From Ignavibacteriota bacterium (GTDB lineage: Bacteria; Bacteroidota; Ignavibacteria; UBA10030; SZUA-254), in the NCBI GenBank assembly GCA_016209795.1, contig JACQVI010000104.1, forward strand, positions 1-40,016: DNA of 40,016 nt, read 5' to 3'. The first letter of the stretch is position 1, and each line of letters begins with the position of its first letter. Position numbers and translations under genes: made by a program. Shown one piece after another: positions 3,288 through 33,776 of the stretch. Under the pieces are notes generated by a model, which searched no databases, was not told the DNA's origin, and saw nothing but the letters and a program-made list of their open reading frames with translations.

Positions 3288-3322
3288 AACTTTTGGGGTC
3301 CTTATCATTTCAAATGTTCCTT

Positions 3323-6300
3323 ATGAATACAACATCTCATCGAAAAATGATGACCATCGACGGCAACGAAGCAGCCGCCTATATTGCACATAAGTTAAAC
3401 GAAGTCATTGCCATCTATCCCATTACTCCATCATCTCCAATGGGTGAATTGTGTGATGAATGGTCTGCACAAGGCAAGAAAAATTTGTGGGGGACGGTTC
3501 CGCTTGTTGTTGAGATGCAAAGCGAAGGAGGAGCCGCAGGTGCTATTCATGGTGCACTGCAAACGGGGGCGTTAGCAACGACGTTTACCTCGTCGCAAGG
3601 GCTTCTCCTCATGATTCCCAACATGTTCAAGATTGCTGGCGAGCTGACATCAACAGTCTTTCATGTCGCAGCGAGAACAGTTGCCACACATGCACTTTCA
3701 ATCTTCGGCGATCACAGCGATGTGATGGCTGTTCGGTCAACAGGATGGGCACTATTAGCATCGAATTCTGTTCAAGAGGTAATGGACTTTGCCTTGATAG
3801 CACAGGCGGCAACTCTTGAAGCACGCGTCCCTTTCATCCATTTTTTTGATGGCTTTCGAACATCCCATGAAGTAATGAAAATCGAGCAGTTAAGCGACGA
3901 TGATCTTCGAGCAATGATTGATGAAGAATTGATCCGGGCGCATCGTGCACGAGCACTTTCACCAGACCATCCTGTGCTCAGAGGTTCTGCACAAAACCCT
4001 GATGTATTCTTCCAGGCACGAGAGACTGTCAATCCATTTTATGCCGAATGTCCAGCCATCGTGCAGGGCGTAATGGATAAATTTGCAGAAGCAGTTGGAC
4101 GAAAATACTCATTGTTTGATTATGTCGGTGCACCAAATCCCGAACGTGTCATTGTCATGATGGGTTCGGGGACAGAAACAGTACAAGAGACCGTTGAATA
4201 TCTCAATGCAAAAGGTGAGAATGTCGGCTTGATCAAAGTACGACTGTTCCGACCATTTTCCGTTGAACATTTCATCAAGGCTCTTCCATTCACAGTAAAA
4301 TCAATTGCTGTCCTTGACCGCACCAAGGAACCCGGTGCTATTGGCGAGCCGTTGTATCAGGACGTTGTAACTGCCCTTTTTGAGACAAGTCTTAAATTCC
4401 AAACCTCAAATCTCAAATCTGTTATCTGCGGTCGGTACGGTTTGTCATCCAAGGAATTCACACCAGCGATGGTGAAAGCGGTATTTGACGAACTGAAAAA
4501 GGATCAGCCCAAAAATCACTTCACCATGGGCATTACGGACGACATCACACGCACAAGCCTTGAGTACGATCCCTCTTTTACGACAGAATCGAATGATGTC
4601 GTACGGGCGATTTTCTACGGTCTCGGCGCTGACGGGACTGTGAGCGCCAATAAGAATTCTATCAAGATTATCGGTGAAACGACAGATTTCCATGCGCAGG
4701 GATATTTTGTGTACGACTCGAAAAAATCCGGCTCAACGACAACTTCGCACTTACGTTTTGGCCCAGAGCCAATTCATTCATCATACCTTATCAATCGAGC
4801 AAATTTCATCGCCTGTCACCAGTGGTTCTTTATGGAAAAGTACGATGTCCTTGAGACTGCTGCACCAAATGGGACATTTCTATTGAACAGTATCTACGGT
4901 CCCGAAGACGTCTGGAACAAAGTTCCTCGGCAAATTCAGAAACACATCGTTGAGAAACATCTGAAGTTTTTTGTCATCGATGCATACAAAGTTGCGCGAC
5001 AATCAGGAATGGGTGGACGTATCAACACGATTATGCAGACGTGTTTCTTTGCAATCTCTGGCGTATTGTCCCGCGAACAAGCCATCGCTGCAATCAAGCA
5101 GTTTATTGAAAAAACGTACGGTAAGAAAGGCGAAGACGTTGTGAGGCAGAATTTCAAGGCAGTCGATGAAACGCTTGCAAATCTGTTTGAAGTCGCGGTG
5201 CCAGATAAGGTGACAAGTAGCGTCGATACCGCGCCACCGGTTTTAGAAAAAGCTCCGGCGTATGTTCGCAACGTCATAGGTCCAATGGTCGCAGGAAAGG
5301 GCGATACTCTGCCTGTCAGCGCTATGCCAATCGACGGTACCTTCCCCGTCGGAACGGCACAATGGGAAAAACGCAATATTGCGCTTGAGATACCCGTATG
5401 GGAACCGGACATCTGCATCCAATGCAATAAGTGTGTTATCGTGTGTCCTCATGCAACGATTCGTGTGAAAGTGTATGAGTCAAATCTACTGTCGAATGCA
5501 CCTCCTACGTTTAAGTCGATGGATTACAAAGGACTTGAGTACAAAGGAATGAAATACACAATTCAAGTTGCTCCAGAAGATTGTACGGGCTGTGGTCTCT
5601 GTGTTGAGGTGTGTCCAGCAAAGAGTAAAACAGAAACAAGAATAAAAGCAATTAACATGAAGCCCCAGCCTCCTCTACGGGAACAGGAACGATTGAACTA
5701 TGACTTCTTCCTGCGGCTGCCCGAAATTGATCGACGCCGGGTAAAGATCGATAGTGTGAAAGGCTCTCAATTTTTACAACCGTTATTTGAATACTCAGGT
5801 GCTTGTGCAGCGTGTGGTGAGACACCATATGTGAAATTGGTAAGCCAGCTTTTTGGTGATCGATCAATCATTGCGAATGCAACTGGATGCTCGTCAATTT
5901 ACGGTGGCAACCTCCCTACCGTTCCATGGACAACCGATGCAGAGGGACGAGGTCCCGCATGGTCAAATTCCCTCTTCGAAGACAATGCAGAATTCGGTCT
6001 TGGAATGCGCTTGACGATTGACAAACACACTGAGATGGCAAAAGAACTTCTAGCCAAGCTTGCTTCAGTGGTTGGCGATGTTCTTGCGTCTGCCATCCTG
6101 AACACCGATCAGTCTCACGAAGCAGGCATTTACGAGCAACGAGAGCAGGTCAAAATCCTGAAAGAAAAATTGCAAGCTATTATAGATTCTGATGCCAAAT
6201 CCGATGCTTCTGACAAGGCTTATCACCTCCTAGCCATTGTCGACAACCTCGTCAAACGCAGTATCTGGATCATAGGAGGTGATGGATGGGCGTACGATAT

Positions 6301-6964
6301 CGGTTACGGCGGTCTCGATCATGTCCTTGCATCAGGACGGAATGTTAACGTCCTCGTGCTTGATACGGAAGTATATTCTAACACTGGAGGGCAAACGTCA
6401 AAAGCAACTCCGCGTTCGGCTGTTGCAAAATTTTCTGCAGGAGGAAAACAGACAGCAAAGAAAGACCTTGCTCTCCTTGCGATGACGTACGGAAACGTGT
6501 ACGTCGCGCAAGTTGCATTGGGAGCGAACGATACGCAAACTCTTCGTGCATTCCTCGAAGCGGAAGCGTATGATGGTCCTTCACTTATCATTGCTTATAG
6601 CCATTGCATCGCCCACGGTATTGACATGGGAAAAGGAATGCACAACCAAAAAGTCGCTGTGGATACAGGCTATTGGCAGCTTTTCCGCTACAATCCAATG
6701 CTTGCAAAGAAAGGTGAGAATCCTTTCAAACTCGATTCAAAGCCGCCGAAACTTCCATTGAGGGAATTTACGCAATTAGAAACACGATTTAAAATGCTCG
6801 AAAAGAGTTACCCTGAACGCGCAAAAGAATTAGCAGCATTCGCACAAGATGATGTCTATGTGCGGTGGAAAATCTATGAGCATCTTGCACACGCTACTAA
6901 CAGCCAGCATTCCAAAGAATATATTCCATCCACTCTACAGCATGTGGATGAACGAGAAAATTGA
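3323..6964 (+). CDS. nifJ: Pyruvate:ferredoxin (flavodoxin) oxidoreductase
   Basis: A single-chain, about 1213-residue PFOR: pyruvate + CoA + oxidised ferredoxin to acetyl-CoA + CO2 + reduced ferredoxin. Landmarks: YPITPSSPMGE near 32-42; EGGAAGAIHGAL in the pyrimidine-binding domain; two ferredoxin motifs CIQCNKCVIVCP from about 698 and CTGCGLCVEVCP from about 754; CAACGETP near 828 for the proximal cluster; and the TPP-binding stretch GDGWAYDIGYGGLDH near 986, followed by SNTGGQTSKATPRSA. All three [4Fe-4S] sites are present. Start is uncertain: an upstream TTG (3293) and ATG (3314) are in frame, and the conserved family N-terminus MxTIDGNEAAAY would fit ATG 3347 or 3350; none has a strong ribosome-binding site. 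Residues 358-366 (KFQTSNLKS) are encoded by a copy of a dispersed repeat and look like an insertion. The enzyme links alanine dehydrogenase to the ferredoxin/Nfn genes. Confidence 0.95.
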   Translation: MNTTSHRKMMTIDGNEAAAYIAHKLNEVIAIYPITPSSPMGELCDEWSAQGKKNLWGTVPLVVEMQSEGGAAGAIHGALQTGALATTFTSSQGLLLMIPNMFKIAGELTSTVFHVAARTVATHALSIFGDHSDVMAVRSTGWALLASNSVQEVMDFALIAQAATLEARVPFIHFFDGFRTSHEVMKIEQLSDDDLRAMIDEELIRAHRARALSPDHPVLRGSAQNPDVFFQARETVNPFYAECPAIVQGVMDKFAEAVGRKYSLFDYVGAPNPERVIVMMGSGTETVQETVEYLNAKGENVGLIKVRLFRPFSVEHFIKALPFTVKSIAVLDRTKEPGAIGEPLYQDVVTALFETSLKFQTSNLKSVICGRYGLSSKEFTPAMVKAVFDELKKDQPKNHFTMGITDDITRTSLEYDPSFTTESNDVVRAIFYGLGADGTVSANKNSIKIIGETTDFHAQGYFVYDSKKSGSTTTSHLRFGPEPIHSSYLINRANFIACHQWFFMEKYDVLETAAPNGTFLLNSIYGPEDVWNKVPRQIQKHIVEKHLKFFVIDAYKVARQSGMGGRINTIMQTCFFAISGVLSREQAIAAIKQFIEKTYGKKGEDVVRQNFKAVDETLANLFEVAVPDKVTSSVDTAPPVLEKAPAYVRNVIGPMVAGKGDTLPVSAMPIDGTFPVGTAQWEKRNIALEIPVWEPDICIQCNKCVIVCPHATIRVKVYESNLLSNAPPTFKSMDYKGLEYKGMKYTIQVAPEDCTGCGLCVEVCPAKSKTETRIKAINMKPQPPLREQERLNYDFFLRLPEIDRRRVKIDSVKGSQFLQPLFEYSGACAACGETPYVKLVSQLFGDRSIIANATGCSSIYGGNLPTVPWTTDAEGRGPAWSNSLFEDNAEFGLGMRLTIDKHTEMAKELLAKLASVVGDVLASAILNTDQSHEAGIYEQREQVKILKEKLQAIIDSDAKSDASDKAYHLLAIVDNLVKRSIWIIGGDGWAYDIGYGGLDHVLASGRNVNVLVLDTEVYSNTGGQTSKATPRSAVAKFSAGGKQTAKKDLALLAMTYGNVYVAQVALGANDTQTLRAFLEAEAYDGPSLIIAYSHCIAHGIDMGKGMHNQKVAVDTGYWQLFRYNPMLAKKGENPFKLDSKPPKLPLREFTQLETRFKMLEKSYPERAKELAAFAQDDVYVRWKIYEHLAHATNSQHSKEYIPSTLQHVDEREN
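4394..4420 (+). repeat. Dispersed-repeat copy inserted in frame in nifJ
   Basis: This stretch of CAAACCTCAAATCTCAAAT type encodes KFQTSNLKS in the middle of PFOR. Its reverse complement carries the modules GATTTGAGA and GGTTTGG(A/G)ATT, which also occur at 29321-29350 (inside a T9SS gene) and at 25211-25239 (between genes). Three degenerate copies in different contexts point to a short mobile or slippage-derived repeat family. The copy keeps the reading frame. Confidence 0.5.
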
Positions 6965-7184: not shown

Positions 7185-7200
7185 TGGCATGATTCTTTCA
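7185..7200 (+). promoter_or_regulatory. TGGCAT-N5-TTTCA box upstream of the redox operon (sigma-54-like)
   Basis: TGGCAT-GATTC-TTTCA lies 39 bases before the ATG of the first gene. The -24 half is a near match to the sigma-54 consensus, the -12 half is poor (TTTC for TTGC). It is the weakest of the four such boxes but has a perfect palindrome at a suitable distance upstream. Confidence 0.3.
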
Positions 7201-7238: not shown

Positions 7239-7907
7239 ATGACAGTTCTGTTTGTCATTGCAACCATCATCATCTTCTTGACCATTGATTGGATCATCCA
7301 ACGACGTAAGCAGCCGGTGCCACAAACAGCAGTCGCTACAAGAAAACCTGCAGAGACATTTGCAGTCCGTCTGCCTGAAGGAATTTTCTTTGCACCATCG
7401 CACACGTGGTTGAATTTGTTCCCATCTGGCAAAATCCGGATCGGCGTTGATGATTTTATTTCAGGTCTGCTCGCGCATCCTGAAATCACCTTGTTAAAGC
7501 AACCTGGTGAAGAAGTACGAAGAGGAGACCCAATCATTTTGTTGAAAGAGAAAGATCATCTTCTGACGATACGCTCACCGATTGAAGGTCATATCCTCAC
7601 AGCGAATGATGAGCTTCCAAAAAATCCTAAATTATTAAAAGAACAGCTCTTTAGCGATGGCTGGGCATACATGATCAAGCCACTCAAGCTCAAGGAGGTG
7701 AAACATATGTTGATCGGCGACGAGACGCGAACATGGATTCAACACGAATTCCATCGCCTGCGTGATCTACTTGCCGGGTTAGGACGAAATGGATCGCTTC
7801 AACCTGCTTACTTGCAGGAAGGTGGCCCACCGATTGCTGGCGTATTAAATGTTATGGACGATGTAGTCTGGCAGCAGATCGATCAGGAATTCCTCCGAGT
7901 GCAATAA
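7239..7907 (+). CDS. Membrane-anchored glycine-cleavage H-protein-like subunit
   Basis: A 222-residue protein with one N-terminal membrane helix (about 3-21) followed by QRRK, which by the positive-inside rule leaves the rest in the cytoplasm. Residues about 45-160 resemble GcvH: FFAPSHTWLNLFPSGKIRIGVDDF matches the H-protein entry strands (key residues H54-W56, G69-D71), and RSPIEGHI matches the SPVSGEV turn. The lipoylated lysine should be eight residues before that proline; here the position is Asp, with lysines only one and three residues further upstream (KEKD), so lipoylation is doubtful. AAAGGAG precedes the ATG. It heads an operon with a ferredoxin subunit and an NrfD-type subunit, so a structural or electron-transfer role in that complex is more likely than glycine cleavage; no gcvT or gcvP is present here. 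Confidence 0.8.
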   Translation: MTVLFVIATIIIFLTIDWIIQRRKQPVPQTAVATRKPAETFAVRLPEGIFFAPSHTWLNLFPSGKIRIGVDDFISGLLAHPEITLLKQPGEEVRRGDPIILLKEKDHLLTIRSPIEGHILTANDELPKNPKLLKEQLFSDGWAYMIKPLKLKEVKHMLIGDETRTWIQHEFHRLRDLLAGLGRNGSLQPAYLQEGGPPIAGVLNVMDDVVWQQIDQEFLRVQ

Positions 7908-7924
7908 TTCAAGAGGAGAGAGCC

Positions 7925-8716
7925 ATGAAAAAGAAAGCGCTTCTCATCGACCTGACAATGTGCATTGGCTGCAATGCGTGCCAGGAAGCATGCAAGAAAG
8001 AAAATAATCTTCCTGAAGGAGAAGAGAAAAAATTATCAGCCACTGCTTACACAACGCTAGAAGAGCACGATGATGTCTTTGTACGACGACTGTGTCAACA
8101 GTGCATAGATCCCACATGTGTTTCCGTATGTCCCGTCGGTGCCTTCACGAAGACTGCTGAGGGTCCCGTCCTCTACGATGAATCAAAATGTATTGGCTGT
8201 CGGTATTGCATCCAAGCCTGTCCGTTTCAAGTACCTCGGTATGAATGGAACAGCACCTATCCCCGTGTCCAGAAATGCCGCTTTTGCTATGACCGCATCA
8301 AGCAAGGCTTACAGCCAGCATGTGCAGAAGCGTGTCCAACCGGTGCTACAAAATTCGGTGACCGTGACGATCTGATTCGGGAAGCTTATGAGCGAATTAA
8401 AGCAGAACCCGAAAAATACGTTGATAGAATTTACGGATTGCAAGAAGTCGGTGGGACATCGGTGCTGTACTTATCGAGTATTCCGTTCGAGCGGCTCGGG
8501 TTTAAGACGCAGTTAGAAACCACTGCATTGCCTTTGTTGACCTGGAATGCACTTTCAAAAATTCCGACTGTCGTCACAGTTGGCGGGGTGTTGTTGTATG
8601 GCATCTGGTGGATCACAAACCGTCGAACCTATGTACGTGAGTACGAACGAGCACTGCAAAAGAAGAAAGACCAGAAGAATAACGAGCAAGGAGATAAGCA
8701 TGAAGAACTATCTTAA
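7925..8716 (+). CDS. Four-cluster [4Fe-4S] ferredoxin subunit with C-terminal membrane helix (HybA/NrfC/DsrO-like)
   Basis: A 263-residue iron-sulfur subunit. Sixteen cysteines fall in four groups: C13/16/19/23, C57/60/65/69, C89/92/95/99 and C118/121/133/137, the standard arrangement of polyferredoxin subunits that feed NrfD-type membrane proteins. A hydrophobic helix at about 213-231 is followed by positively charged residues. There is no Tat or Sec signal: the protein begins MKKKALLIDLTMCIGC, so its clusters should face the cytoplasm, unlike periplasmic HybA and NrfC. AGAGGAG-type ribosome-binding sequence precedes the ATG. The 3' end overlaps the next gene by 17 bases, implying coupled translation. 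It would carry electrons between a soluble donor such as ferredoxin or NAD(P)H and the quinone pool; the catalytic partner is not in this operon. Confidence 0.9.
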   Translation: MKKKALLIDLTMCIGCNACQEACKKENNLPEGEEKKLSATAYTTLEEHDDVFVRRLCQQCIDPTCVSVCPVGAFTKTAEGPVLYDESKCIGCRYCIQACPFQVPRYEWNSTYPRVQKCRFCYDRIKQGLQPACAEACPTGATKFGDRDDLIREAYERIKAEPEKYVDRIYGLQEVGGTSVLYLSSIPFERLGFKTQLETTALPLLTWNALSKIPTVVTVGGVLLYGIWWITNRRTYVREYERALQKKKDQKNNEQGDKHEELS

Positions 8717-9920
8717 ATCTCTGACATTTTGGAAAACGGTCGGGACAATAATCATCACCGCTGGAATCTATGTTACTTACGTCAGATTCGCGAAGGGACT
8801 CGGTGGTACAACGAATCTGAGTGATGAATTTCCATGGGGATTGTGGATTGGCTTCGACATTCTTTGCGGAGTCGGTCTCGCCGCCGGTGGTTTCACGCTT
8901 GCAGCAATCGTTCACATTTTTCACATCAAACGATTCGAGCCAATCCTGCGACCGACAATCCTCACAGCGTTTCTTGGCTATCTCCTTGTCATCGTCGCCT
9001 TGCTGTACGATCTGGGACGACCGCTTCAGATTTGGCACGCCATTATTATGTGGAATCCGCACTCAGTGATGTTCGAAGTTGCTTGGTGCGTGATGTTGTA
9101 CACAGCCGTACTTGCACTGGAGTTCTCTCCCGTTGTCTTAGAGAAATTCAACATGACTCGAACGCTAAAAGTCTTCAAGCGCATTACTCTTCCACTTATC
9201 ATCATCGGTGTGTTATTATCAACGCTACACCAATCGTCACTTGGCTCTCTTTACCTTATTGTGCCTGAAAAACTTTACCCACTCTGGTACACACCGTATC
9301 TTCCTGTGTTCTTTTTCTTCTCAGCAATTGCTGTGGGATGTGCTATGATCATTTTTGAGTCGTTCTTAAGTGCACGGGCATTCAAGAAAGGATTGGAGCT
9401 ACACCTCCTCGCAGATATTGCCAGAGCAAGTGTTGTGATTCTTGCAGCCTACTTAACAATGAAAATTATGGACTTGATAGATCGCTCGACAATCTCTCTG
9501 CTCTTTCTGCCGCGGATGGAAACATATCTTTACTGGCTGGAAATTGTTGTAGGTGTTGTTGCACCACTGTTTCTACTCTCTTTGCTGAAAGTCAGACAAT
9601 ATCACAACGGACTTTTTTTCAGTGCCGTGATGATAATTCTTGGATTCATCCTCAACCGAATGAACATCAGCATTACCGGCATGGAAGCATGGGCGGGTCT
9701 GTCATACTTCCCAACATGGATGGAAATCACTGTGACGATGGCAATCGTCACGGTAGGATTCATCATTTTTAGACTTGCTGCAAAGTATCTACCGTTATTC
9801 ACACACGAATACGAGACACAAACACTAAAACCCATACTTGATCTCGACGAAGATTTGCAGTTGATTTCTCAGCCGAATTATCAGTCTGAAACCCATCCCT
9901 TCGGGAGAATCATACCATGA
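8700..9920 (+). CDS. nrfD: NrfD/HybB/PsrC-family polytopic membrane subunit
   Basis: A 406-residue integral membrane protein with about nine to ten hydrophobic segments, matching the polysulfide reductase NrfD family that exchanges electrons and protons with menaquinone. Family-like features include GLWIGFDILCGVGLAAGGF in the first part, LYDLGRP in the third helix region, and LLSTLHQSSLGSL in the middle. The start at 8700 is chosen because AAGGAG lies 8 bases before this ATG and upstream in-frame ATG codons fall inside the ferredoxin gene. It overlaps the preceding gene by 17 bases and the following gene by 4 (ATGA), so the four subunits are a tightly coupled unit. Symbol denotes family only; the substrate of the whole complex is unknown. 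Confidence 0.9.
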   Translation: MKNYLKSLTFWKTVGTIIITAGIYVTYVRFAKGLGGTTNLSDEFPWGLWIGFDILCGVGLAAGGFTLAAIVHIFHIKRFEPILRPTILTAFLGYLLVIVALLYDLGRPLQIWHAIIMWNPHSVMFEVAWCVMLYTAVLALEFSPVVLEKFNMTRTLKVFKRITLPLIIIGVLLSTLHQSSLGSLYLIVPEKLYPLWYTPYLPVFFFFSAIAVGCAMIIFESFLSARAFKKGLELHLLADIARASVVILAAYLTMKIMDLIDRSTISLLFLPRMETYLYWLEIVVGVVAPLFLLSLLKVRQYHNGLFFSAVMIILGFILNRMNISITGMEAWAGLSYFPTWMEITVTMAIVTVGFIIFRLAAKYLPLFTHEYETQTLKPILDLDEDLQLISQPNYQSETHPFGRIIP

Positions 9921-10666
9921 GATTTACATCAGATGATAAATCGTCTCACCCTATCGTACCCGAAAAATTGCGATGTATCTGGATGACGGCTGGCATACTC
10001 TCTTACCAGCTGTGTAACCGCCAGTTCGACTGTGAGAACTGTCCGCTCGATAAGGCAATGCGGATGCACTTCTCTCCAGGATCCCACGGTGCATTCTTTA
10101 ACGAACAGTACCACTGTGAACTTCCGAGCGAAGATTGTCTCTTTAGCAGAGATCACTGCTGGGTGAAAAATATGAATGAGGACATCATCCGTGTTGGGTT
10201 GGAACCAGGGTTTGCTGCTGCCCTCATCTCCCCAAAGGCGATTGCTCTTCCCTCTGTTGGAGAAAATGTGGAACCAGGCAAATTTTGCTGCTGGATTATC
10301 TTAGAAGGTGAGACTATTCCACTTCGTTCACCAGTCAGCGGTAAAATTGTTACGACGAATGCCCGTATCGCTGATGAACCCCACGAAATCTGTCAGCGTG
10401 CACTTACATCGGGATGGCTCTTCGAGGTGCAAGTATATGACCAAGCGCTCGAAGCAGACAATCTCATGACAAAAGAGGAGGCAGATCAGTGCTACAGCAG
10501 AGACTTCACACGATTCACAACAATGTTAAATGAAGCGCTGCGAGAAAACAATATGCAGGTCGGCATGACCATGCAAGACGGCGGGGCAGTTTTGCGAAAT
10601 GTTTCTGATATCATAGGAGCAAAAAAATATTGTGAGCTTCTTCGTACTGTATTCTTAGCCAAGTAA
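9917..10666 (+). CDS. Cys-rich H-protein-like subunit of the NrfD-type complex
   Basis: A 249-residue soluble protein without signal peptide or membrane helix. The N-terminus carries a four-cysteine set C20, C33, C39, C42 (pattern LC-N-CENCP) able to bind a metal or iron-sulfur cluster. Residues about 80-180 are H-protein-like: DHCWVKNMNEDIIRVGLEPGF matches the GcvH HTWV...GITD region and RSPVSGKIVTTN matches SPVSGEVVEVN almost exactly. The lipoyl-lysine position is Gly (GEGTIP-like context), so it cannot be lipoylated in the usual way. It shares this defect with the first gene of the operon, and the two resemble each other over the H-like domain. Probably a cytoplasmic assembly or electron-transfer subunit; function not established by sequence. 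Confidence 0.78.
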   Translation: MRFTSDDKSSHPIVPEKLRCIWMTAGILSYQLCNRQFDCENCPLDKAMRMHFSPGSHGAFFNEQYHCELPSEDCLFSRDHCWVKNMNEDIIRVGLEPGFAAALISPKAIALPSVGENVEPGKFCCWIILEGETIPLRSPVSGKIVTTNARIADEPHEICQRALTSGWLFEVQVYDQALEADNLMTKEEADQCYSRDFTRFTTMLNEALRENNMQVGMTMQDGGAVLRNVSDIIGAKKYCELLRTVFLAK

Positions 10667-10764
10667 AGCGTTCTCACAATTAAGAATCTTCTCTCTTCTG
10701 TTTTCACCAATGAGAATCCTTCTTTTAAAATCAAGAAGCTATGTGTGCAATTGACATTTCCCAA

Positions 10765-10780
10765 TGGCATATAACTTGTC
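10765..10780 (+). promoter_or_regulatory. TGGCAT-N5-TTGTC box upstream of the sensor kinase (sigma-54-like)
   Basis: TGGCAT-ATAAC-TTGTC ends 14 bases before the chosen kinase start. It keeps the TGG and TTG parts of the sigma-54 consensus but has GT rather than GC at -12. Transcription from it would give a very short leader. Just upstream, TTGACATTTCCCAA resembles the half TTGAATTTCCCAA within the palindrome at 7115-7135. Confidence 0.25.
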
Positions 10781-10794
10781 CATTAATTGAGGGA

Positions 10795-12435
10795 ATGCGT
10801 ATATCATTTTTCCACAGTCTAAGCGCTCGTGTCCTCATTGGCTCAATCGTCCTACTGTTGCTGCTTGTTGGCTGCTATTCCTATTTCACTGTTCATTTCT
10901 ACAGCGATCAGATGGTGAAACAAGTTCTCCAAAGCGCCAACAGAATGAGCGATGTGATCAAACAATCGATGAACTACAGCATGTTGCTCAATCGTAAGGA
11001 AGACGTTTACCATACAATCAGACTGATTGGGAAAGAGCCGGGCGTGGAAGGCATACGTATCTATAACAAACGAGGAGAGATCATATTCTCCACTGACAAG
11101 CATGAGGAACGGTCAGTCGTCGATATGCACGCCGAGGCTTGTTTTGCATGTCACGACCAAGAGAAACCGCTTGAGTCGCTGACTATGAACGACCGCACAA
11201 GAATTTATGAGGCATCGGATGGATATCGAGTGCTTGGCGTCATCAATCCGATCCGCAACGAAGCTTCTTGTTCAAATGCTTCATGTCACGCACATCCATC
11301 CGACCGCACAGTCCTTGGGGTACTGGACGTACGAATGTCATTAGCAGAATTAGACGGAAGCATCGTAAAAGCACAGAATACGATGATTCTCTTTGCCATT
11401 GGTGTGAGCTTGATCGTTGCGGTAGTCTCTGTTCTTTTCCTGTCGTCAACAGTTCTTAAGCCTGTAAAAAACCTAGTAAAAGGCACACGTGAAATTTCCT
11501 CCGGTAATCTTGCTCACCAAATGACGATCCACACGAAGGATGAGCTTGGAACACTTGCTCAAGCATTCAACGAAATGACTCGTTCACTCTTGCACGAAAA
11601 AGAAGAAAATCGCCGCTGGTCTGAAACACTTCAACAACGCGTCCGTGAGAAAACAGATGAGCTGAAAACAATCCATCAACAGGTCTTACACATCGAGAAA
11701 ATGGCGTCGCTCGGCAAACTCTCTGCCACCGTCGCACACGAACTTAACAATCCTCTTGAAGCGATCCTCACGTATGCGAAACTCGTCGCACGGCGCCTCC
11801 GAAAAGACGAAGCCCTGCTGCAAGCCAACAAGCAAACGCTGGAAGACATTGAGTTGATCGCTAAAGAAACTGACCGCTGTGGAACGATCGTGAAGAATTT
11901 ACTCCTCTTTTCGAAAAAGCAAGTTGGTGAATTTGGGCTTGCACCAGTGAAGCATATCGTTGAACAAGCTGCTAACCTTGTTCACCACCACTGTGAGATT
12001 TCCAATGTTCGTATGAGTGTGAGCTGTGATAGTGATGTAACTCTTTTATGCGATGAAAACCAAATCATACAAGCACTCGTTGCACTACTTGTCAACGCTG
12101 TCGAAGCAATGCCAGAAGGCGGCACCATCACTGTCGACGTCAAACAATCAGCGCACGGCGATGAAGTGCTCATTGCTGTATCGGACACGGGCGTAGGAAT
12201 TGCACAAGAAGATCTTCCCCATATTTTCGAGCCATTCTTTACTACAAAGAAAGACGGAAAAGGTGTTGGGTTGGGATTATCTGTCGTGTATGGAATTGCC
12301 GAGCGTCATGGCGGAAAGATTTCCGCCATTTCAGTACAGAGTAAGGGGACGACTTTCACACTTTCTTTACCCAACGCGAAGAGTACACCGCCAGTCTCTA
12401 AATCAGAACAACAAGTTAAACCTGTAATGCTATGA
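10795..12435 (+). CDS. Sensor histidine kinase with periplasmic heme c motifs
   Basis: A 546-residue transmembrane kinase. Order: membrane helix about 12-31; periplasmic domain about 32-195 with a CFACH heme c motif at 116-120 and a CX4CH motif at 159-165 (C159, C164, H165); second helix about 196-218; HAMP about 219-272; coiled coil; HisKA with phospho-acceptor H315 in VAHELNNPLEAI; and a HATPase domain with an N-box near LLVNAVEAMPEGG, then DTGVGI and GKGVGLGLSVVYGI. Covalent heme in the sensor would make it a redox or gas sensor. The ATG at 10795 is chosen because translation from there starts with the membrane helix; an upstream in-frame ATG (10741) adds an unrelated 18-residue extension. 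It overlaps the response regulator by 4 bases. It lies directly after the NrfD-type operon, its likely target. Confidence 0.9.
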   Translation: MRISFFHSLSARVLIGSIVLLLLLVGCYSYFTVHFYSDQMVKQVLQSANRMSDVIKQSMNYSMLLNRKEDVYHTIRLIGKEPGVEGIRIYNKRGEIIFSTDKHEERSVVDMHAEACFACHDQEKPLESLTMNDRTRIYEASDGYRVLGVINPIRNEASCSNASCHAHPSDRTVLGVLDVRMSLAELDGSIVKAQNTMILFAIGVSLIVAVVSVLFLSSTVLKPVKNLVKGTREISSGNLAHQMTIHTKDELGTLAQAFNEMTRSLLHEKEENRRWSETLQQRVREKTDELKTIHQQVLHIEKMASLGKLSATVAHELNNPLEAILTYAKLVARRLRKDEALLQANKQTLEDIELIAKETDRCGTIVKNLLLFSKKQVGEFGLAPVKHIVEQAANLVHHHCEISNVRMSVSCDSDVTLLCDENQIIQALVALLVNAVEAMPEGGTITVDVKQSAHGDEVLIAVSDTGVGIAQEDLPHIFEPFFTTKKDGKGVGLGLSVVYGIAERHGGKISAISVQSKGTTFTLSLPNAKSTPPVSKSEQQVKPVML

Positions 12436-13784
12436 ATTCAAATTATTCCATTCTCATTGTTGATGATGAAGCCATCGTGAGAGATTCTCTCTCGAAGTGG
12501 TTTCGCGAGGACGGCTTTGTTATTGGGGTTGCAGACAACTCCGCAACTGCATTACGACAACTTCAGGCTCATCGGTGGGATGTCATTCTTCTTGACATCA
12601 AGATGCCGGGAATGGACGGCATAGAACTGCAACAACGAATCATAGAACTTGATCCGAACGTCACAATTATTTTCATCACAGCTCATGCTACCATAGAATC
12701 GGCAGTACAAGCTTTGAAGCGAGGCGCATTTGATTACGTGACCAAGCCTGTGGACCCTGACCATCTCTCCCATCTTATACAGAATGCGCTTAAACAGCGC
12801 AAACTTACTGGTGAAAATATCAAGCTCAAAGAATCTATCACTGAGTTCTTCAAAGCTGATGATATCGTTGGCGAATCGCCACAGATGAAAAAAGTATACG
12901 AATTGATCCAAACCGTCGCGTCGACTGAGACAACAGTAATGGTCCGGGGCGAGAGCGGCACAGGAAAAGAATTGATCGCCCGTGCGATTCATAGTAACAG
13001 TCAGAGAAAATTTTTCCCTATTGTTACTGTCAACTGCGGTGCGTTGCCCGAGGGAATCCTTGAAAGTGAGTTGTTCGGCCATGAGCGTGGAGCATTTACG
13101 GGTGCTCAATATAGGCGAAAAGGAAAACTTGAGCTTGCTGACGGCGGAACGCTTTTTCTCGATGAAGTCGGCAACATTACAATGAAAACCCAAATGGACT
13201 TGCTACGTGTACTCGAGACAAAACAGTTTACACGTGTCGGGGGGAACGATATCATCAGAGTCGACTTCCGAGTGATCTGCGCAACCAACAAGGATTTAGA
13301 AAAAGCCGTCGCAGACGGAACTTTCCGCGAGGATTTGTATTATCGGTTGAATGTATTTTCGATCACCGTCCCGCCGCTTCGAGAACGAAAATCCGATATC
13401 CCACTCATCGCAAACTATTTTGTGAAGAAATATTCGCAGACGATGGGGAAACAAATCAATTGTATATCACCTGAGGCAATGGATGTTCTTGTGAGGCATG
13501 ATTGGCCTGGCAATGTGCGAGAGCTTGTAAATGCAATTGAGAGAGCAATGGTTATTGGAACATCGCCTGCCCTCAAGCCTCAGGATTTGCCCTTTCAGCT
13601 TTTGAATTTGGATAAGAAAAAGAAACCATCATCCGGCTCGTTAGCTGCAGTTGAGAAGGAACATATCGAACTGATTCTTGAACAGAACGGCTGGAATATT
13701 TCTCGTTCGGCAGAAATCTTGGGCATCGATAGAGTGACGTTGTACAACAAGATTGAAAAATATGGACTGCAAAAACCATCGTGA
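12432..13784 (+). CDS. NtrC-family sigma-54-dependent response regulator
   Basis: A 450-residue activator with all three standard parts. Receiver domain 1-120 has the acidic pair D11-D12, the phospho-acceptor D55 in LLDIKMPG and K105 in TKPVD. The AAA+ domain has Walker A GESGTGKE at 173-180, the sigma-54 contact loop GAFTGA at 220-225 and Walker B GTLFLDE near 239-245. A Fis-type helix-turn-helix closes the protein (NISRSAEILGIDRVTLYNKI). The intact GAFTGA loop means it should activate sigma-54 promoters, so such promoters are expected in the genome. Start overlaps the kinase stop (ATGA), its own stop overlaps the GTG of the archaemetzincin gene. Together with the kinase it forms one two-component system. 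Confidence 0.95.
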   Translation: MNSNYSILIVDDEAIVRDSLSKWFREDGFVIGVADNSATALRQLQAHRWDVILLDIKMPGMDGIELQQRIIELDPNVTIIFITAHATIESAVQALKRGAFDYVTKPVDPDHLSHLIQNALKQRKLTGENIKLKESITEFFKADDIVGESPQMKKVYELIQTVASTETTVMVRGESGTGKELIARAIHSNSQRKFFPIVTVNCGALPEGILESELFGHERGAFTGAQYRRKGKLELADGGTLFLDEVGNITMKTQMDLLRVLETKQFTRVGGNDIIRVDFRVICATNKDLEKAVADGTFREDLYYRLNVFSITVPPLRERKSDIPLIANYFVKKYSQTMGKQINCISPEAMDVLVRHDWPGNVRELVNAIERAMVIGTSPALKPQDLPFQLLNLDKKKKPSSGSLAAVEKEHIELILEQNGWNISRSAEILGIDRVTLYNKIEKYGLQKPS

Positions 13785-14317
13785 TAAATGCGATTTATAT
13801 CCTCAACGCTTCAACGCTACAGGAGCAAGACTTGGATCGCATCGTTCACACGGTGAAAACCATATTTCGTGTCCCTGTTTTCGTGAAGCAGGTGGGTCTT
13901 GATTTCGGAAGTGCATTTGACGGCTCACGAGGACAATGGAACTCCACTGTACTGCTCTCTCAGATCATCACGAACAGTGTAGGAGATGATGAGAAGCTGG
14001 TTGCCATCGTTGATGTTGACTTGTTTATCCCAGTACTTACATTCGTCTTTGGTGAAGCACAATTTAAAGGAACAGCGGCTATCGTGTCGACACACCGCCT
14101 TGCGAATCAGTTTTATGGTTTGGAAGAAGACAAGCAACAACTGCTACAACGACTCGAAAAAGAAATCGTCCATGAGCTTGGACACACGTTTGGACTTTAT
14201 CACTGTCGACAGTTTGAGTGTGTGATGCGATCGTCAACATACGTTGGGGAAATCGATTTAAAGCAGGTTTTTCCATGCCAAGATTGTCAACGATTGCTTT
14301 TAAAAAACTTTTCATAA
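13781..14317 (+). CDS. Archaemetzincin-family zinc metalloprotease (M54)
   Basis: A 178-residue protein with the complete archaemetzincin signature HExxHxxGxxxCx4CxMx(16-17)CxxC: zinc ligands H131, H135 and H141, catalytic E132, C142, C147, M149, C166 and C169. The four cysteines normally bind a second, structural zinc. No signal peptide, so cytoplasmic. The start is the GTG that overlaps the regulator's stop codon (GTGA), so translation is coupled to the sigma-54 activator. The family occurs in archaea, animals and scattered bacteria; its substrates are poorly known. Coupling to a redox-sensing two-component system is unusual and suggests a role in processing or turnover of a component of that circuit, which is inference only. 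Confidence 0.92.
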   Translation: MINAIYILNASTLQEQDLDRIVHTVKTIFRVPVFVKQVGLDFGSAFDGSRGQWNSTVLLSQIITNSVGDDEKLVAIVDVDLFIPVLTFVFGEAQFKGTAAIVSTHRLANQFYGLEEDKQQLLQRLEKEIVHELGHTFGLYHCRQFECVMRSSTYVGEIDLKQVFPCQDCQRLLLKNFS

Positions 14318-14569: not shown

Positions 14570-15082
14570 ATGTCAACTCAAACAGTCACCACCTATTACG
14601 AATCAGATCATGATCGTCTGGATGAGCTTTTTAATAAGTTCCAGCAGTTGAAGCGTATCGACTTTCCAAAAGCAAAAGAATTCTTCCAAGAGTTCAAGTT
14701 CGGTCTCCAGCGTCACATCGTCTGGGAGGAAGAAATTCTCTTCCCTCTCTTTGAACAGAAAACAGGGATGTACGACCAGGGACCGACAGAAGTCATGCGG
14801 CAGGAACATCGCCTCATTAAGAAATACCTTGAAGCGATGCATGAGAAAGTGAAAGCATGCAATCCGGAAAGTAATGATGAAGAACAACTGCTGCTCAATA
14901 CCCTTTCGATGCATAACCAAAAGGAGGAGCAGATCCTTTATCCTGCGATTGACCACTCGCTCAGCGATCACGAGCGAGAAACGGTCTTTACATCAATGAA
15001 GACCATTCCCGAAGAGCGATACTGGTACTGCTGTACTCCAGACATCGAAAAGAAACGATATTTTCCCTTTCGTCGTCATTGA
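14570..15082 (+). CDS. Hemerythrin HHE domain protein
   Basis: A 170-residue four-helix hemerythrin-like protein expected to bind a non-heme di-iron centre. Candidate ligands are visible in the family spacing: H14 (SDHDRLDELF), H48 with E52-E54 (RHIVWEEEILFP), H80 (MRQEHRLIKKYL), and H115 with E119 (HNQKEEQILYPAID). No signal peptide. AAGGAG precedes the ATG at a normal distance. Roles of such proteins include oxygen binding, NO/ROS protection and iron-sulfur repair. It stands alone on the plus strand after the archaemetzincin gene, separated by 252 bases. A second hemerythrin is encoded at 22491-22991. Confidence 0.9.
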   Translation: MSTQTVTTYYESDHDRLDELFNKFQQLKRIDFPKAKEFFQEFKFGLQRHIVWEEEILFPLFEQKTGMYDQGPTEVMRQEHRLIKKYLEAMHEKVKACNPESNDEEQLLLNTLSMHNQKEEQILYPAIDHSLSDHERETVFTSMKTIPEERYWYCCTPDIEKKRYFPFRRH

Positions 15083-19822: not shown

Positions 19823-21322
19823 TTAGTAATCAGACCCACACCGTTCTGGCTCGGCTGTAATTACGTTAGAATGATCTACTGTACTTGTTCTTTTACCATC
19901 CAGTTTTGAAAGGAGATAGTTATGAATCGCCATCGCAGCGGTTTTTCCATCCCTCATTGCGAGAATCACCGTAGCACCGCCGCGTGCAAGATCACCACCA
20001 GCAAAAACGCCTTCTCGACTCGTGAGTTGCTGCTCGTTAACAACAACTGTCCCGCTCTTGCTTATCTCCAAGCCCGGCGTAGTCGACTGAATGATCGGAT
20101 TCGGTTTCTGCCCAATCGCTTCGATGACCGTTTGAACCTCAATAACAAATTCTGAATCTCTGATAGGCACCGGTTTGCGTCGACCTGACTCATCAGGTTC
20201 ACCCAGTTCCATGCGCTGACATTCGATTCCCCGAACCCAGTGGTTTTTATCCCCAAGAATCTTGATAGGATTCGTCAGCAAAATGAATTCAATCCCTTCT
20301 TCTTCGGCGTGATGGATTTCCTCCTCGCGGGCGGGCATTTCCTGTCGAGAACGGCGATAGATCAGATATGCATGTTCCGCTCCGAGCCTTTTCGCCGTTC
20401 TCACAGCATCCATTGCCGTGTTGCCGCCGCCAATGACAGCAACGTTCTTCCCAATTTTGACGGGTGTGTCATAGTGTGGAAAGTCATACGCTTTCATCAG
20501 ATTAACACGGGTGAGAAACTCGTTGGCTGAATAAACTCCACTCAGATTCTCTCCGGGAATTCCCATGAATAGAGGTGTACCTGCACCCGTTCCAAGAAAA
20601 ATCGCATCAAACTTCCACTCGTCAAACAACTCGTCGATTGTTGCCGTTCTTCCGACTACAAAGTTAGTGAAGATTTCAACCCCAAGTGCTTTCGCTCGCT
20701 CTATCTCGATGTCGAGGATATGCCTTGGCAATCGGAATTCAGGAATCCCATACCGCAAGACACCACCAGCAGCATGAAGTGCTTCAAAGATTGTCACCTT
20801 ATAGCCGAGTTTTGCAAGTTCTGCTGCGCAGGTGAGCCCCGCTGGTCCTGAACCGACAACAGCAACCCTTTCACCACGAACTCCTGAGATAATCGGGAAA
20901 GTAAAAAGATTATGTTTGATCTCGAAGTCAGCAACATATCGTTCTAATTTACCGATGGCAACAGGCGGATGTTTTTTCCCAAGCGTGCACACGACTTCAC
21001 ATTGTGATTCTTGAGGACACACCCTCCCACAAATTGCTGGGAAATAATTGGCTTCCCGTATTTTTTCGACAGCTCCTATGTAATCTTCCTGAAGAATAGA
21101 CTGAATAAAGCTCTTGATATCGATCGCAACGGGACACCCTTCAATGCATACGGGATTCGCGCATTCGAGACAGCGCGAAGCTTCAACCAGCGCACGTTGC
21201 TCATCCAGTCCATGTGATACTTCAGAAAAATTTGCCACTCGTTCAAGAGGGAGCTGTTCAATGGAAGATTGCCGAAGAATCTTCATCCGCTGTGATGGCT
21301 TCAGTGGGTTAATGTACTTCAT
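19823..21322 (-). CDS. nfnB: NADH-dependent ferredoxin:NADP+ oxidoreductase, large subunit NfnB (GltD-like)
   Basis: A 499-residue flavoprotein of the glutamate synthase small-subunit family. N-terminal [4Fe-4S] ligands are C51/C54/C59/C63 and C98/C102/C108/C112; the FAD site is VVGSGPAGLTC from about 155; the second dinucleotide site is VIGGGNTAMDAV; GGDLARGGATVI near the C-terminus closes the FAD pocket. Because it overlaps, by 14 bases, a gene for a flavodoxin-reductase-like NfnA subunit, it is read as NfnB of an electron-bifurcating transhydrogenase rather than as GltD; no glutamate synthase large subunit is present. The complex would couple NADPH oxidation to reduction of ferredoxin and NAD+, or the reverse, balancing the ferredoxin produced by PFOR. 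Sulfide dehydrogenase activity is known for homologues and cannot be excluded. Confidence 0.9.
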   Translation of the reverse strand: MKYINPLKPSQRMKILRQSSIEQLPLERVANFSEVSHGLDEQRALVEASRCLECANPVCIEGCPVAIDIKSFIQSILQEDYIGAVEKIREANYFPAICGRVCPQESQCEVVCTLGKKHPPVAIGKLERYVADFEIKHNLFTFPIISGVRGERVAVVGSGPAGLTCAAELAKLGYKVTIFEALHAAGGVLRYGIPEFRLPRHILDIEIERAKALGVEIFTNFVVGRTATIDELFDEWKFDAIFLGTGAGTPLFMGIPGENLSGVYSANEFLTRVNLMKAYDFPHYDTPVKIGKNVAVIGGGNTAMDAVRTAKRLGAEHAYLIYRRSRQEMPAREEEIHHAEEEGIEFILLTNPIKILGDKNHWVRGIECQRMELGEPDESGRRKPVPIRDSEFVIEVQTVIEAIGQKPNPIIQSTTPGLEISKSGTVVVNEQQLTSREGVFAGGDLARGGATVILAMRDGKTAAMAIHNYLLSKLDGKRTSTVDHSNVITAEPERCGSDY

Positions 21323-22205
21323 TCATCAAGGATTCATGTAGGTTTAACTCATCTCGTTTACGAATGTGGTATTCAGAATCTTTGCTTGCACAATACCGAA
21401 GGTCTGAAATCTGCTCCAAGTCAACATAGGTTTGATTGCGCATCATTAATTCATCGAAATCGACGTTATTGCCATCGAACTCGGGTCCATCAACACACGC
21501 AAACTTCATCCGACCACCAACCGTGACTCGACAGCCTCCACACATCCCCGTCCCATCGACCATGATGGCATTTAAACTGACAATTGTTTTCACTCCATAT
21601 TTTTTTGTGAGGGCAGAAACTGCCTTCATCATGGGGAGCGGACCAATAGCATAGACTGCGGAAATGCCAAGCGGTGCATCAAGAAGTTCCTTTAGCGGTT
21701 CGGTGACAAGACCTTTACGTTTATATGAACCGTCATCTGTAGTAATAAACATGCCGTTTGAAATCTCCGACATTTCTTTCTCTAAAATGAGACGCTCTTT
21801 CGTCCGCGCTCCTATGACGGAATACACCGTGTTCTGCACCTCTTTGAGTGCACAAGCGATGGGATAAAGCTCTGCCGTTCCCACTCCACCTCCGATACAT
21901 GCAACACCGCCGTAATATTCAATCGGGGTAGGATTCCCCAGTGGTCCCACAACATCGACAAGCACATCACCACTGTTCTTGGACAGCATTGCCTTCGTCG
22001 TTTTTCCAACTGCTTGAACAATGAGAGTGATGCTACCTGCGGAGCTATCGCTTTCAACAATAGTCAACGGAATGCGTTCTCCCGTCTCAAGTAGGCGAAC
22101 GATGACAAAATTTCCCGGACGATGCTTCCTTGCAACATATGGGGCTTTGATAACAAACTTCGCTATCGTTGAACAAAGAAATTCCTTCGATACAATTGGA
22201 AACAT
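21309..22205 (-). CDS. nfnA: NADH-dependent ferredoxin:NADP+ oxidoreductase, small subunit NfnA
   Basis: A 298-residue ferredoxin-NADP reductase-fold subunit. An FAD-binding barrel (RIPLTIVESD near 44-53) precedes an NAD-binding domain (CIGGGVGTAELYP near 103-115). A [2Fe-2S] site is formed by C222, C225 and C237 in DGTGMCGGC...FACVDGPEFDG; Asp217 just before it may be the fourth ligand, as reported for NfnA proteins. Soluble, cytoplasmic. No ribosome-binding site is evident; it begins 15 bases after the ferredoxin gene. The 3' end overlaps nfnB, so the subunits are made together. Confidence 0.9.
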   Translation of the reverse strand: MFPIVSKEFLCSTIAKFVIKAPYVARKHRPGNFVIVRLLETGERIPLTIVESDSSAGSITLIVQAVGKTTKAMLSKNSGDVLVDVVGPLGNPTPIEYYGGVACIGGGVGTAELYPIACALKEVQNTVYSVIGARTKERLILEKEMSEISNGMFITTDDGSYKRKGLVTEPLKELLDAPLGISAVYAIGPLPMMKAVSALTKKYGVKTIVSLNAIMVDGTGMCGGCRVTVGGRMKFACVDGPEFDGNNVDFDELMMRNQTYVDLEQISDLRYCASKDSEYHIRKRDELNLHESLMNEVH

Positions 22206-22490: not shown

Positions 22491-22991
22491 TTAAGAAACA
22501 GATACCGTTGATGAAATGATATCATGCCGCAGTTGTTTATATTCGTCCGATGTTAAGACTTGCTTTGCCCGGGGAAACAGTATAGTATTTTCTTTGGCAA
22601 TATGACTTCGCAGCAACTCGATGACAGCCATCGAACATTTGATCAGATCATGAATAGTCGATGGATGGATCCGAAGTTCCTCAACATCCTTGATGCATTC
22701 CTTCAATGCACTTAATGCCCGCAACAACTCACGATGTTCATCTCGCATTAACGCCGGCGACCCATTCCCATGCCGATCCATCAAGGGAAACAGGTACTTT
22801 TCTTCCTTTTCATTGTGCTTGGGGATTTCCATATTGATGTATAGTAACGCTTCTGTTATCTGTGCGAAGGCTTCGTAGGAAAATCCATTGACTTTGATAT
22901 ACTCGGTGGCATGTGCCAATCGATTGAGATGTTGGAGCACTTCATCATGCTCTTTCATAAGGATACCGATGGGGTCGCGGGGATTATTCAT
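22491..22991 (-). CDS. Hemerythrin HHE domain protein (first gene of ferredoxin/nfn operon)
   Basis: A 166-residue predicted four-helix di-iron protein. Candidate ligands: H15 (KEHDEVLQHL), H59 with E61-E63 (KHNEKEEKYLFP), H86 (RDEHRELLRAL) and H130 with E134 (SHIAKENTILFP). It is only distantly similar to the hemerythrin at 14570-15082. CGGAG precedes the ATG. It opens the operon with ferredoxin and nfnAB, suggesting oxygen or NO defence for these oxygen-sensitive carriers. The upstream region carries a sigma-54-like box and several inverted repeats. Confidence 0.88.
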   Translation of the reverse strand: MNNPRDPIGILMKEHDEVLQHLNRLAHATEYIKVNGFSYEAFAQITEALLYINMEIPKHNEKEEKYLFPLMDRHGNGSPALMRDEHRELLRALSALKECIKDVEELRIHPSTIHDLIKCSMAVIELLRSHIAKENTILFPRAKQVLTSDEYKQLRHDIISSTVSVS

Positions 22992-31904: not shown

Positions 31905-33776
31905 TTATTGAACAAGGATAAGTTTTTTAACTACACTTTGATCTCGTGCTGACAACCGATAGAAGTAGACGCCACTGGCAAGATTCGATCCATCGAGATA
32001 CGCTGTGTGCAAACCTGCTGGATAGTACGTATCTGCAAGTCGCACAAGCTCTTTTCCCGTGATGTCATAGAGCACAAGTGAAGCCTCTGCGGATTCCGAA
32101 AGCCAGAATTCAATTGTTGACCTACTGTTAAATGGATTCGGGAAGTTCTGCGCAAGGCGGATTTCAATAGGAGTTGTTGGATCAGAGAATGTAGGTAGCG
32201 AGGGAGGTGTGTTCTTTACAGCAACTTGCTGCTGCGCCATCATCACAGGTTCTCCGTATAACTGCCAGGCATCGTACACTTTTTGTCCCCAGTCGTTCCA
32301 GTCATACGGATTATCAATGTTTTCTTCTCTCAAAAATTCAATAAACTCCTTACTGGCAACTTGATACCAGAGCGACACATAGACACTTTCGACACCGCTG
32401 CTCATTATGAATCTCGTTACATCCCAGTACTGACCATTTTCGTAATGATACTCAACCGGCTCTGCTCGGTGGCTGCGAAACGCCTCATAGCGAAACCCTC
32501 GTGGCGGTATTCGATTATCAAAGTAAATGGTATCATTTAATGCCGCATTGAAGGATGGACCAGGTGGAAGTCCCAGCACTGACGCAAGTGCCACAGATAA
32601 CCCCGGCTTTATCTGATATACTTTGATTTGAGAATCAACAACAAGTCTTCCGGTGACTGAATCATATTTTCCCGATTCAAAGATGGTCATGCCGATTTTG
32701 TTTTTTCCCACCACAGACATCCAGATTCGCCGTCCCTCTGGAAAGCCAGTTGGAAGCTTATGTCCAGTGAGATTTGTCAGTCGCACGAGTGCAACTACAG
32801 AATCGTGCTCGAGACCCGCAGCAACTTCCAATCTTGCTGCTCGTTGCAAGACTGAAATTGAACGAGTGATACCATCGAAGACAGCATCTCTGTTTGTGCC
32901 TTCCCAGGAATCAATGACGGCACGAGGAGAATAGGTGTTACCTCCAGTGAAGTCATGACTGGCAACATCTAAGCGATACCGGGATCCGGGCAATGAGGAA
33001 CCAAACCCGGGGAATTTTGCCATGTGGCAAGACTGACACGTTCCGGCTTCTCCTCGTGTTGCAAACCAGCTCAATTTCCATTCGCTGTACGTTCGCTCGA
33101 CAGGAACTTGAAGATGAGGCGGAGTAGTTCGTGGATTGGGAGAAAGATAAGGATTGCTCACATCATGACAAACACCGCAGAATTCACTTGTCTTGTAAAA
33201 CTCATCATAGACTGTCGGTAAAGAATGATCCAGACCTCCTCGACCTCCACGAATCGGTTGACCATATTTCTGGACAACGTACATCCCATTGCCATACCCC
33301 GGAACTTCTCCGCCAACAATCGCCGACGTATCTGGATGCAGTGGATCCAATGATCGGTGACAGAAATCGCAATTGACGCCATCAAGATCAGAACCGTAGA
33401 GTTCTTTCACCGTGCCGGGATGTGATCGTCCAGAAAGCCATCCCGATGCTGAATGACATCGTAAACAATACTCACCGACATCCAGCCCCAGTGGTTCCGT
33501 ATATTTTGTTGTGAGAACCAGGAGAGCATTGAACATCGGATCACGTGGCGCATGTGCCATCATGCTGCCGGACCATTCCCGAACTTGTTGTGCATGACAA
33601 GGCTTGCATGCATCTGTGCTGGCTGCTGAATCCGCTTGACCCGGCTGTGTGCCCGGAAGCCAGATGAAAACACCTCTCTTGCCGCGATCGCCAGTGGCAA
33701 GACTCAAATAGGTTATTAAACCAATCAGTATGCAACATAAAATGACAACAACAGAGTATTTCCAAAGTCGACTCAT
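31905..33776 (-). CDS. Pentaheme cytochrome c with T9SS sorting domain
   Basis: A 623-residue secreted cytochrome. An N-terminal membrane/signal helix (about 7-27) is followed by five CxxCH heme c motifs at 57-61, 104-108, 136-140, 200-204 and 247-251. The first heme is followed by EWSGSMMAHAPRDPMF, as in cytochrome c554-like multiheme proteins. Residues about 265-520 lack heme motifs and are beta-rich. A variant T9SS domain closes the protein (QNFPNPFNSRSTIEF to SGVYFYRL, about 545-623). Its heme-domain layout matches the adjacent lipoprotein cytochrome. A surface location is predicted, implying electron transfer outside the outer membrane. 34 bases separate it from the BNR gene. Confidence 0.92.
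   Translation of the reverse strand: MSRLWKYSVVVILCCILIGLITYLSLATGDRGKRGVFIWLPGTQPGQADSAASTDACKPCHAQQVREWSGSMMAHAPRDPMFNALLVLTTKYTEPLGLDVGEYCLRCHSASGWLSGRSHPGTVKELYGSDLDGVNCDFCHRSLDPLHPDTSAIVGGEVPGYGNGMYVVQKYGQPIRGGRGGLDHSLPTVYDEFYKTSEFCGVCHDVSNPYLSPNPRTTPPHLQVPVERTYSEWKLSWFATRGEAGTCQSCHMAKFPGFGSSLPGSRYRLDVASHDFTGGNTYSPRAVIDSWEGTNRDAVFDGITRSISVLQRAARLEVAAGLEHDSVVALVRLTNLTGHKLPTGFPEGRRIWMSVVGKNKIGMTIFESGKYDSVTGRLVVDSQIKVYQIKPGLSVALASVLGLPPGPSFNAALNDTIYFDNRIPPRGFRYEAFRSHRAEPVEYHYENGQYWDVTRFIMSSGVESVYVSLWYQVASKEFIEFLREENIDNPYDWNDWGQKVYDAWQLYGEPVMMAQQQVAVKNTPPSLPTFSDPTTPIEIRLAQNFPNPFNSRSTIEFWLSESAEASLVLYDITGKELVRLADTYYPAGLHTAYLDGSNLASGVYFYRLSARDQSVVKKLILVQ

Follow-up and report, generated by a model that had tools for sequence, protein, structure and literature searches.

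The tail-anchored HybA/FdnH-like proteins exported by the twin-arginine translocation (Tat) system carry their iron-sulfur (FeS) domain outside. The NrfD proteins reviewed to date bind quinone near the positive (P) side of the membrane, with SoeC proposed to be inverted, and the quinone-site residues of HybB are D58, D109, and S129 (PMC8076601). A signal-less FeS protein with a C-terminal tail has been reported beside HybB and was interpreted as being co-exported with a Tat-bearing Fe-Fe hydrogenase (PMC10924467). Here, we describe a related FeS/NrfD pair in a 40,016-nucleotide (nt) stretch of DNA from an Ignavibacteriota bacterium (the window; contig JACQVI010000104.1), in which the pair is framed by H1 and H2, two proteins with the fold of the glycine cleavage H protein that lack its lipoyl lysine. 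An interpretation made from the letters of the window before this analysis (the sequence-only reading) had proposed an operon of H-like, four-cluster ferredoxin, NrfD, and H-like genes, with overlaps among the last three. All four open reading frames were found at 7239-10666 on the forward strand; the FeS and NrfD genes overlap by 17 nt and the NrfD and H2 genes by 4 nt, and a 17-nt gap separates H1 from the FeS gene with no overlap. The NrfD start was set at 8700, not at the mechanical reading-frame start of 8547. The conserved unit extends beyond these four genes, since a kinase, a regulator, and an M54 protease lie directly downstream at 10741-14317; judged by their gene order, the seven genes H1-FeS-NrfD-H2-kinase-regulator-M54 are one conserved unit. 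Its features are as follows.

7185-7200, forward strand: sigma-54-type -24/-12-like element, TGGCATGATTCTTTCA, 54 nt before the H1 start
7239-7907, forward strand: H1, with an N-terminal transmembrane anchor (residues 2-23), an H-fold domain, and a C-terminal helical extension
7925-8716, forward strand: FeS subunit, HmcB/HybA-like, 263 amino acids, with cysteine motifs for four [4Fe-4S] clusters and a C-terminal hydrophobic tail
8700-9920, forward strand: NrfD subunit, HmcC/HybB-like, with 10 predicted transmembrane segments
9917-10666, forward strand: H2, with an N-terminal four-Cys motif, an H-fold domain, and a C-terminal DGG extension
10741-12435, forward strand: sensor histidine kinase, with c-type heme motifs in its periplasmic part, then HAMP, HisKA, and HATPase domains (Pfam)
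12432-13784, forward strand: NtrC/AtoC-type response regulator, with receiver (REC), sigma-54 AAA+, and Fis helix-turn-helix domains (Pfam, NCBIfam)
13781-14317, forward strand: Peptidase M54 (archaemetzincin-like; Pfam Peptidase_M54, 3e-21), the conserved last gene of the unit

Both H1 and H2 belong to the H fold by sequence and by predicted structure. They scored 45.2 and 54.1 bits against the Pfam GCV_H profile (cut-off 22.2), and 45.4 and 58 bits against NCBIfam GcvH, far under its cut-off of 117. Modeled as single chains, H1 (AlphaFold; mean predicted local distance difference test, pLDDT, 86.7) matched 1onl with a TM-score by target of 0.89 and H2 (pLDDT 80) matched the E. coli H protein with 0.90, and the Foldseek matches of these models to solved H proteins had E values of about 1e-11. 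The genome encodes one other GCV_H protein, a genuine GcvH with the motif EAVKA. Alignment to this protein confirmed that both H domains keep the SPxxG turn and that the lipoyl position is occupied by Asp in H1 and Gly in H2, as had been claimed. Lysine occurs at this column in 7 of 81 H-like domains of the collected loci, scattered and never in an ExVKA context, and with a single exception it is missing from the Desulfobacterota and planctomycete sets. On these alignments, no group of H proteins conserves the lipoyl lysine and the loss is general across the homologue groups. The sequence-only reading had suggested a new role for the H folds; this was the right inference, because action as a lipoyl carrier in the usual way is impossible and the loss extends to the homologues. 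H1 and H2 share a conserved C-terminal DGG helical extension, and H2 additionally has four invariant cysteines (C20-x12-C33-x5-C39-x2-C42), a motif that is doubled in many Desulfobacterota H proteins. A scan of genome contigs with H2 alone as the query returned no matches.

The FeS and NrfD subunits resemble the paired subunits of Hmc and Hyb complexes. The best NCBIfam match of the FeS protein was HmcB (5e-78, 262 bits; under the cut-off of 420), and NrfD matched Pfam NrfD (4e-23) and, as its best NCBIfam family, HmcC (5e-102, 342 bits; under the cut-off of 550). The FeS subunit contains 16 cysteines, corresponding to four clusters, with the first cluster motif at residue 13. All 16 are kept in the FeS proteins of loci with the window's arrangement (type A), except for a C-to-D change at one position in a subclade; electron transfer by the FeS protein is therefore probably retained. 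The subclade comprises loci L043, L046, L048, and L098, where the fourth cysteine of the first cluster motif is replaced by Asp. In NrfD, conservation across types A and B (the latter described below) reaches at least 90% at D53, D104, and S122 (positions counted from the 8700 start); the match of these residues to the HybB quinone-site residues is one of spacing only.

Relatives were collected by searching 296 genomes of the phylum and retrieving the surroundings of the matches. The four-gene order sought in other genomes was found in Ignavibacteria and relatives as the seven-gene order, complete in 13 loci and also in 14 loci with named records, some of them from the same genomes. Exceptions are two loci with two H1-like genes that lack H2 and the kinase, two loci that lack only the adjacent kinase, one that lacks H2, and one genome in which the unit is split. 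A gene for a tetraheme cytochrome, with four CxxCH motifs, separates H2 from the kinase in three type A loci, L041 (at 9833-10336), L084, and L096; the L041 protein looks c554-like by eye.

Other arrangements link the same domain to further electron-transfer genes. In type B, a Tat-signal FeS protein, NrfD, a 13-heme cytochrome, and a heme kinase are followed by two receiver-GCV_H fusion proteins, of which the second has an N-terminal transmembrane segment. H1 groups with this transmembrane-receiver-H protein in the domain tree (support 91, below the star threshold), a grouping which suggests that H1 is the type B subunit minus its receiver. In type C loci, genes for an H protein and then a pentaheme cytochrome precede those for a molybdopterin subunit (which has a Tat-like signal), FeS, NrfD, and another H protein, in that order; kinase, regulator, and M54 genes lie nearby. 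In Planctomycetota, a regulator-kinase pair is divergent from genes for H proteins, FeS, NrfD, and a cytochrome with 13 or 17 hemes; the FeS protein of L104 bears a Tat signal. Desulfobacterota loci encode a kinase without heme motifs, a sigma-54 regulator, M54, and one or two H proteins of about 300 amino acids, with no FeS or NrfD; the H protein beside these genes is H2-like. The Desulfobacterota genome G301, which holds locus L109, has nine GCV_H matches, none of normal GcvH size, and by these matches contains an expansion of non-lipoylated H proteins. Two fusions were also observed: a NuoG-type Fer2-Fer4 protein joined to a four-Cys+H module in a NuoE/NuoF-GltD-like operon (L117:6785-8110, Desulfobacterota), and an 822-amino-acid protein joining an NAD-dependent epimerase-like domain to the same module (L119:744-3212). 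From the contexts in types B and C, Planctomycetota, and Desulfobacterota, the H fold tracks two-component systems and electron-transfer enzymes generally, not NrfD alone. The sequence-only reading had named a consistent extra catalytic subunit in homologous operons as evidence that would count against it, and this is partly the case: additional subunits occur in type B (13-heme cytochrome), type C (molybdenum cofactor, Moco, subunit and pentaheme cytochrome), and some type A loci (tetraheme cytochrome), but usually not in the window's own lineage. Its statement that no molybdopterin or cytochrome subunit is encoded is accurate within 7239-10666, but the downstream kinase of the same conserved unit has two c-type heme motifs. 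The window operon encodes no HmcA-type multiheme cytochrome; multiheme cytochromes are present in type B and planctomycete loci.

The two heme motifs of the kinase, CFACH (134) and CSNASCH (177), are of the CxxCH and CX4CH kinds, and both are also present in further kinases: 15 of type A, 10 of type B, and 2 from planctomycetes. The regulator has the receiver, sigma-54 interaction, and Fis helix-turn-helix domains of the NtrC family (Pfam, NCBIfam), and the genome encodes a sigma-54 factor. The element at 7185-7200 is the best site of the H1 upstream region (shuffle p = 0.005), and the pattern TGGCNNGNNNNTTTC matched once in the window, at this site, against a chance expectation of 0.34. Its -12 element reads TTTC rather than the consensus TTGC, and TTTC is common to near relatives. 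Of 21 operons, 10 have a sigma-54-type site scoring at least 11 upstream of H1, compared to 2 of 122 control genes from the same loci (Fisher p 3e-8), and a strong site precedes the Desulfobacterota H gene in 9 of 9 cases versus 0 of 17 controls. No such enrichment was seen in types B and C, for which sigma-54 control was rejected. The M54 gene adjoins the sigma-54 regulator in most type A loci (Ignavibacteria) and in Desulfobacterota; our guess is that it serves regulated proteolysis of a component.

The operon and its gene order, the lost lipoyl lysine, the heme motifs, the receiver-H fusions, and the promoter enrichment can all be read directly in the sequences. The reading that we prefer, with probability evenly balanced for and against, is that the unit encodes a quinone-linked module of the HmcB/HybA and HmcC/HybB type with non-lipoylated H-fold adaptor or regulatory subunits and its own redox two-component switch. 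H1 and H2 would act as cytoplasmic adaptor or regulatory subunits of the FeS/NrfD module and presumably bind the pair, H1 being membrane-anchored and H2 carrying a putative metal or Fe-S site at its four cysteines. The kinase, through its two predicted periplasmic c-type hemes, may sense redox state or a heme ligand and phosphorylate the NtrC-type regulator, and the unit's own regulator would then act on the sigma-54 site before H1 and activate that promoter. In type B, where the receiver is fused directly to the H fold, the kinase probably signals to the complex by way of the H domain.

Several observations weigh against this reading. The cues to the orientation of the FeS protein disagree, with the missing Tat signal on one side and the charges of its C-terminal tail and the topology of NrfD on the other. 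Four loci (L051, L057, L064, and L065) have no adjacent kinase and one (L069) has no H2; roughly half of the type A operons have no scoring sigma-54 site, and the -12 element at the window's own site is atypical. That the kinase senses redox state is suggested by its heme motifs, and the direction of electron flow is likewise inferred.

More tentatively, and somewhat against the balance of probability, the H fold may be a general non-lipoylated signaling or adaptor domain that links two-component systems to respiratory and ferredoxin complexes. The kinase would control the NrfD complex by sigma-54 transcription in type A or by receiver-H phosphorylation in type B, making the latter a respiratory complex gated by phosphorylation, and the same domain would be used in Ignavibacteria, Planctomycetota, and Desulfobacterota.

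An unlikely alternative, though one that several features favor, is the module proposed by the sequence-only reading: a cytoplasm-facing ferredoxin or NAD(P)H:quinone oxidoreductase in which the signal-less FeS protein takes electrons from ferredoxin and passes them to NrfD, with H1 and H2 as docking subunits. The claimed lack of an export signal was borne out. No N-terminal signal was found on the FeS protein; Tat signals were absent from every type A protein but present in all 10 of the type B proteins and in the one complete FeS protein from planctomycetes. Comparison of N-termini found RR-x-F-[LIMV] in no type A FeS protein, and an overlooked upstream Tat start was rejected because, in most type A loci, the gene starts just before the first cluster motif and H1 ends immediately upstream. 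The genome also offers no obvious export partner, since no Fe-Fe or NiFe hydrogenases were found in it and every Moco subunit not belonging to complex I comes with an FeS protein of its own; of the three Moco-type loci, one encodes a Psr/ACIII-like complex, one a Nar-like set, and the third NuoG of complex I, and the first two are each FeS-paired. A hydrogenase or orphan Moco protein that exports the FeS subunit was rejected on these grounds. Further, a pyruvate:ferredoxin oxidoreductase (PFOR) is encoded next door at 3293-6964, and SoeC provides a proposed inverted NrfD-type subunit (PMC8076601). Inversion is ruled out here by loop charges, however: NrfD is positive-inside just as in type B, with K+R of 19.0 in even loops versus 4.2 in odd loops, and its conserved loops are predicted to lie outside. 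The FeS tail has more K/R after than before its hydrophobic segment in 21 of 21 type A proteins. PFOR is not a conserved neighbor of the unit in relatives, which led us to reject a ferredoxin:quinone enzyme fed by it, and no NAD(P)H-binding subunit is present. Cytoplasm-facing clusters and a ferredoxin or NAD(P)H:quinone function are accordingly not established: the missing Tat signal favors the former, but the C-terminal tail and NrfD topology point to the periplasm.

These same tail charges and topology would suit a periplasm-facing quinol/cytochrome module, a reduced Hmc/Hyb-like shuttle between quinone and periplasm in which an unlinked partner would carry the FeS protein through Tat and the H proteins would be structural; we consider this explanation quite doubtful. 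TatC is encoded in the genome, the signal-less FeS protein beside HybB is a precedent (PMC10924467), and a tetraheme cytochrome lies within the unit in L041, L084, and L096. Nonetheless, the known type of partner, a hydrogenase, was not found in the genome, the conserved unit has no Tat-bearing gene, and the hydrophobicity of the C-terminal tail is 1.22, below the 1.77 of type B. A role for H1 and H2 as conventional lipoyl or thiol carriers, with the modification on a different lysine (KEKD of H1), is highly improbable. They do have a genuine H fold, and LbpA of the sHdr pathway is an example of an H-like protein in a redox pathway outside glycine cleavage (PMC6067878), but the lipoyl column has no conserved lysine in any group, and the H1 alignment shows no conservation of the KEKD lysines.

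Other features of the window were also recorded. An adjacent NfnA/NfnB-like pair, comprising a DHODB-type FeS protein and a GltD-like flavoprotein, lies near PFOR at 19826-22205 on the reverse strand. Hemerythrin-domain proteins are encoded at 14570-15082 (forward) and 22494-22991 (reverse). Proteins at 31908-33776 and 36950-39997 (reverse) combine multiheme-cytochrome matches (c554/c7, MtrC-like) with a type IX secretion C-terminal sorting domain, which suggests that they are multiheme cytochromes exported by this system; a c554-like cytochrome is encoded beside them at 33846-35147.

Links between H-like proteins and NrfD, between H-like proteins and response regulators, and between archaemetzincin and sigma-54 were not found reported in the open-licence literature searched. 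The catalytic parts of the unit are each of a known kind, and it is the H-fold subunits and the two-component linkage that were not found there. Members of an H-fold family that gave up lipoylation are found in three phyla, consistently linked to redox complexes and two-component systems, which suggests that respiration has taken over a well-known metabolic fold for a regulatory role. Genomes are misread at such loci because automatic annotation names these H-fold proteins glycine cleavage proteins. If receiver-H fusions do gate the NrfD complex, a phosphorelay would switch respiration directly, a type of respiratory control of which we know no example. The operon also poses a topology puzzle, with a signal-less FeS protein on an NrfD protein whose quinone side faces outward.

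Compared to known systems, the unit shares with Hmc (HmcB/HmcC) and E. coli HybA/HybB the FeS-NrfD gene order, a four-cluster FeS protein with a C-terminal tail, and the topology of NrfD. It differs in that its FeS protein has no Tat signal, in having no HmcA-type cytochrome, HmcE, or HmcF, and in adding two H-fold subunits and heme kinase/sigma-54 control. H1 and H2 resemble GcvH in their fold (predicted TM-score by target of about 0.9) and SPxxG turn; unlike GcvH, they have no lipoyl lysine, gain a transmembrane or four-Cys N-terminus and the DGG helical C-terminal extension, and are encoded away from gcvT and gcvP in a genome with a separate true GcvH. LbpA of sHdr sulfur oxidation is likewise a GcvH-like protein recruited to a redox complex, but it keeps the lysine and is lipoylated, whereas H1 and H2 lack it and have no hdr genes in their operon. 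Finally, the regulatory genes match NtrC/AtoSC-type systems with c-heme kinases in their REC-AAA-Fis regulator and their HAMP-HisKA kinase with periplasmic heme motifs, and depart from them in a fixed linkage to H-fold proteins and M54 and, in type B, in a receiver fused to an H fold instead of a DNA-binding output.

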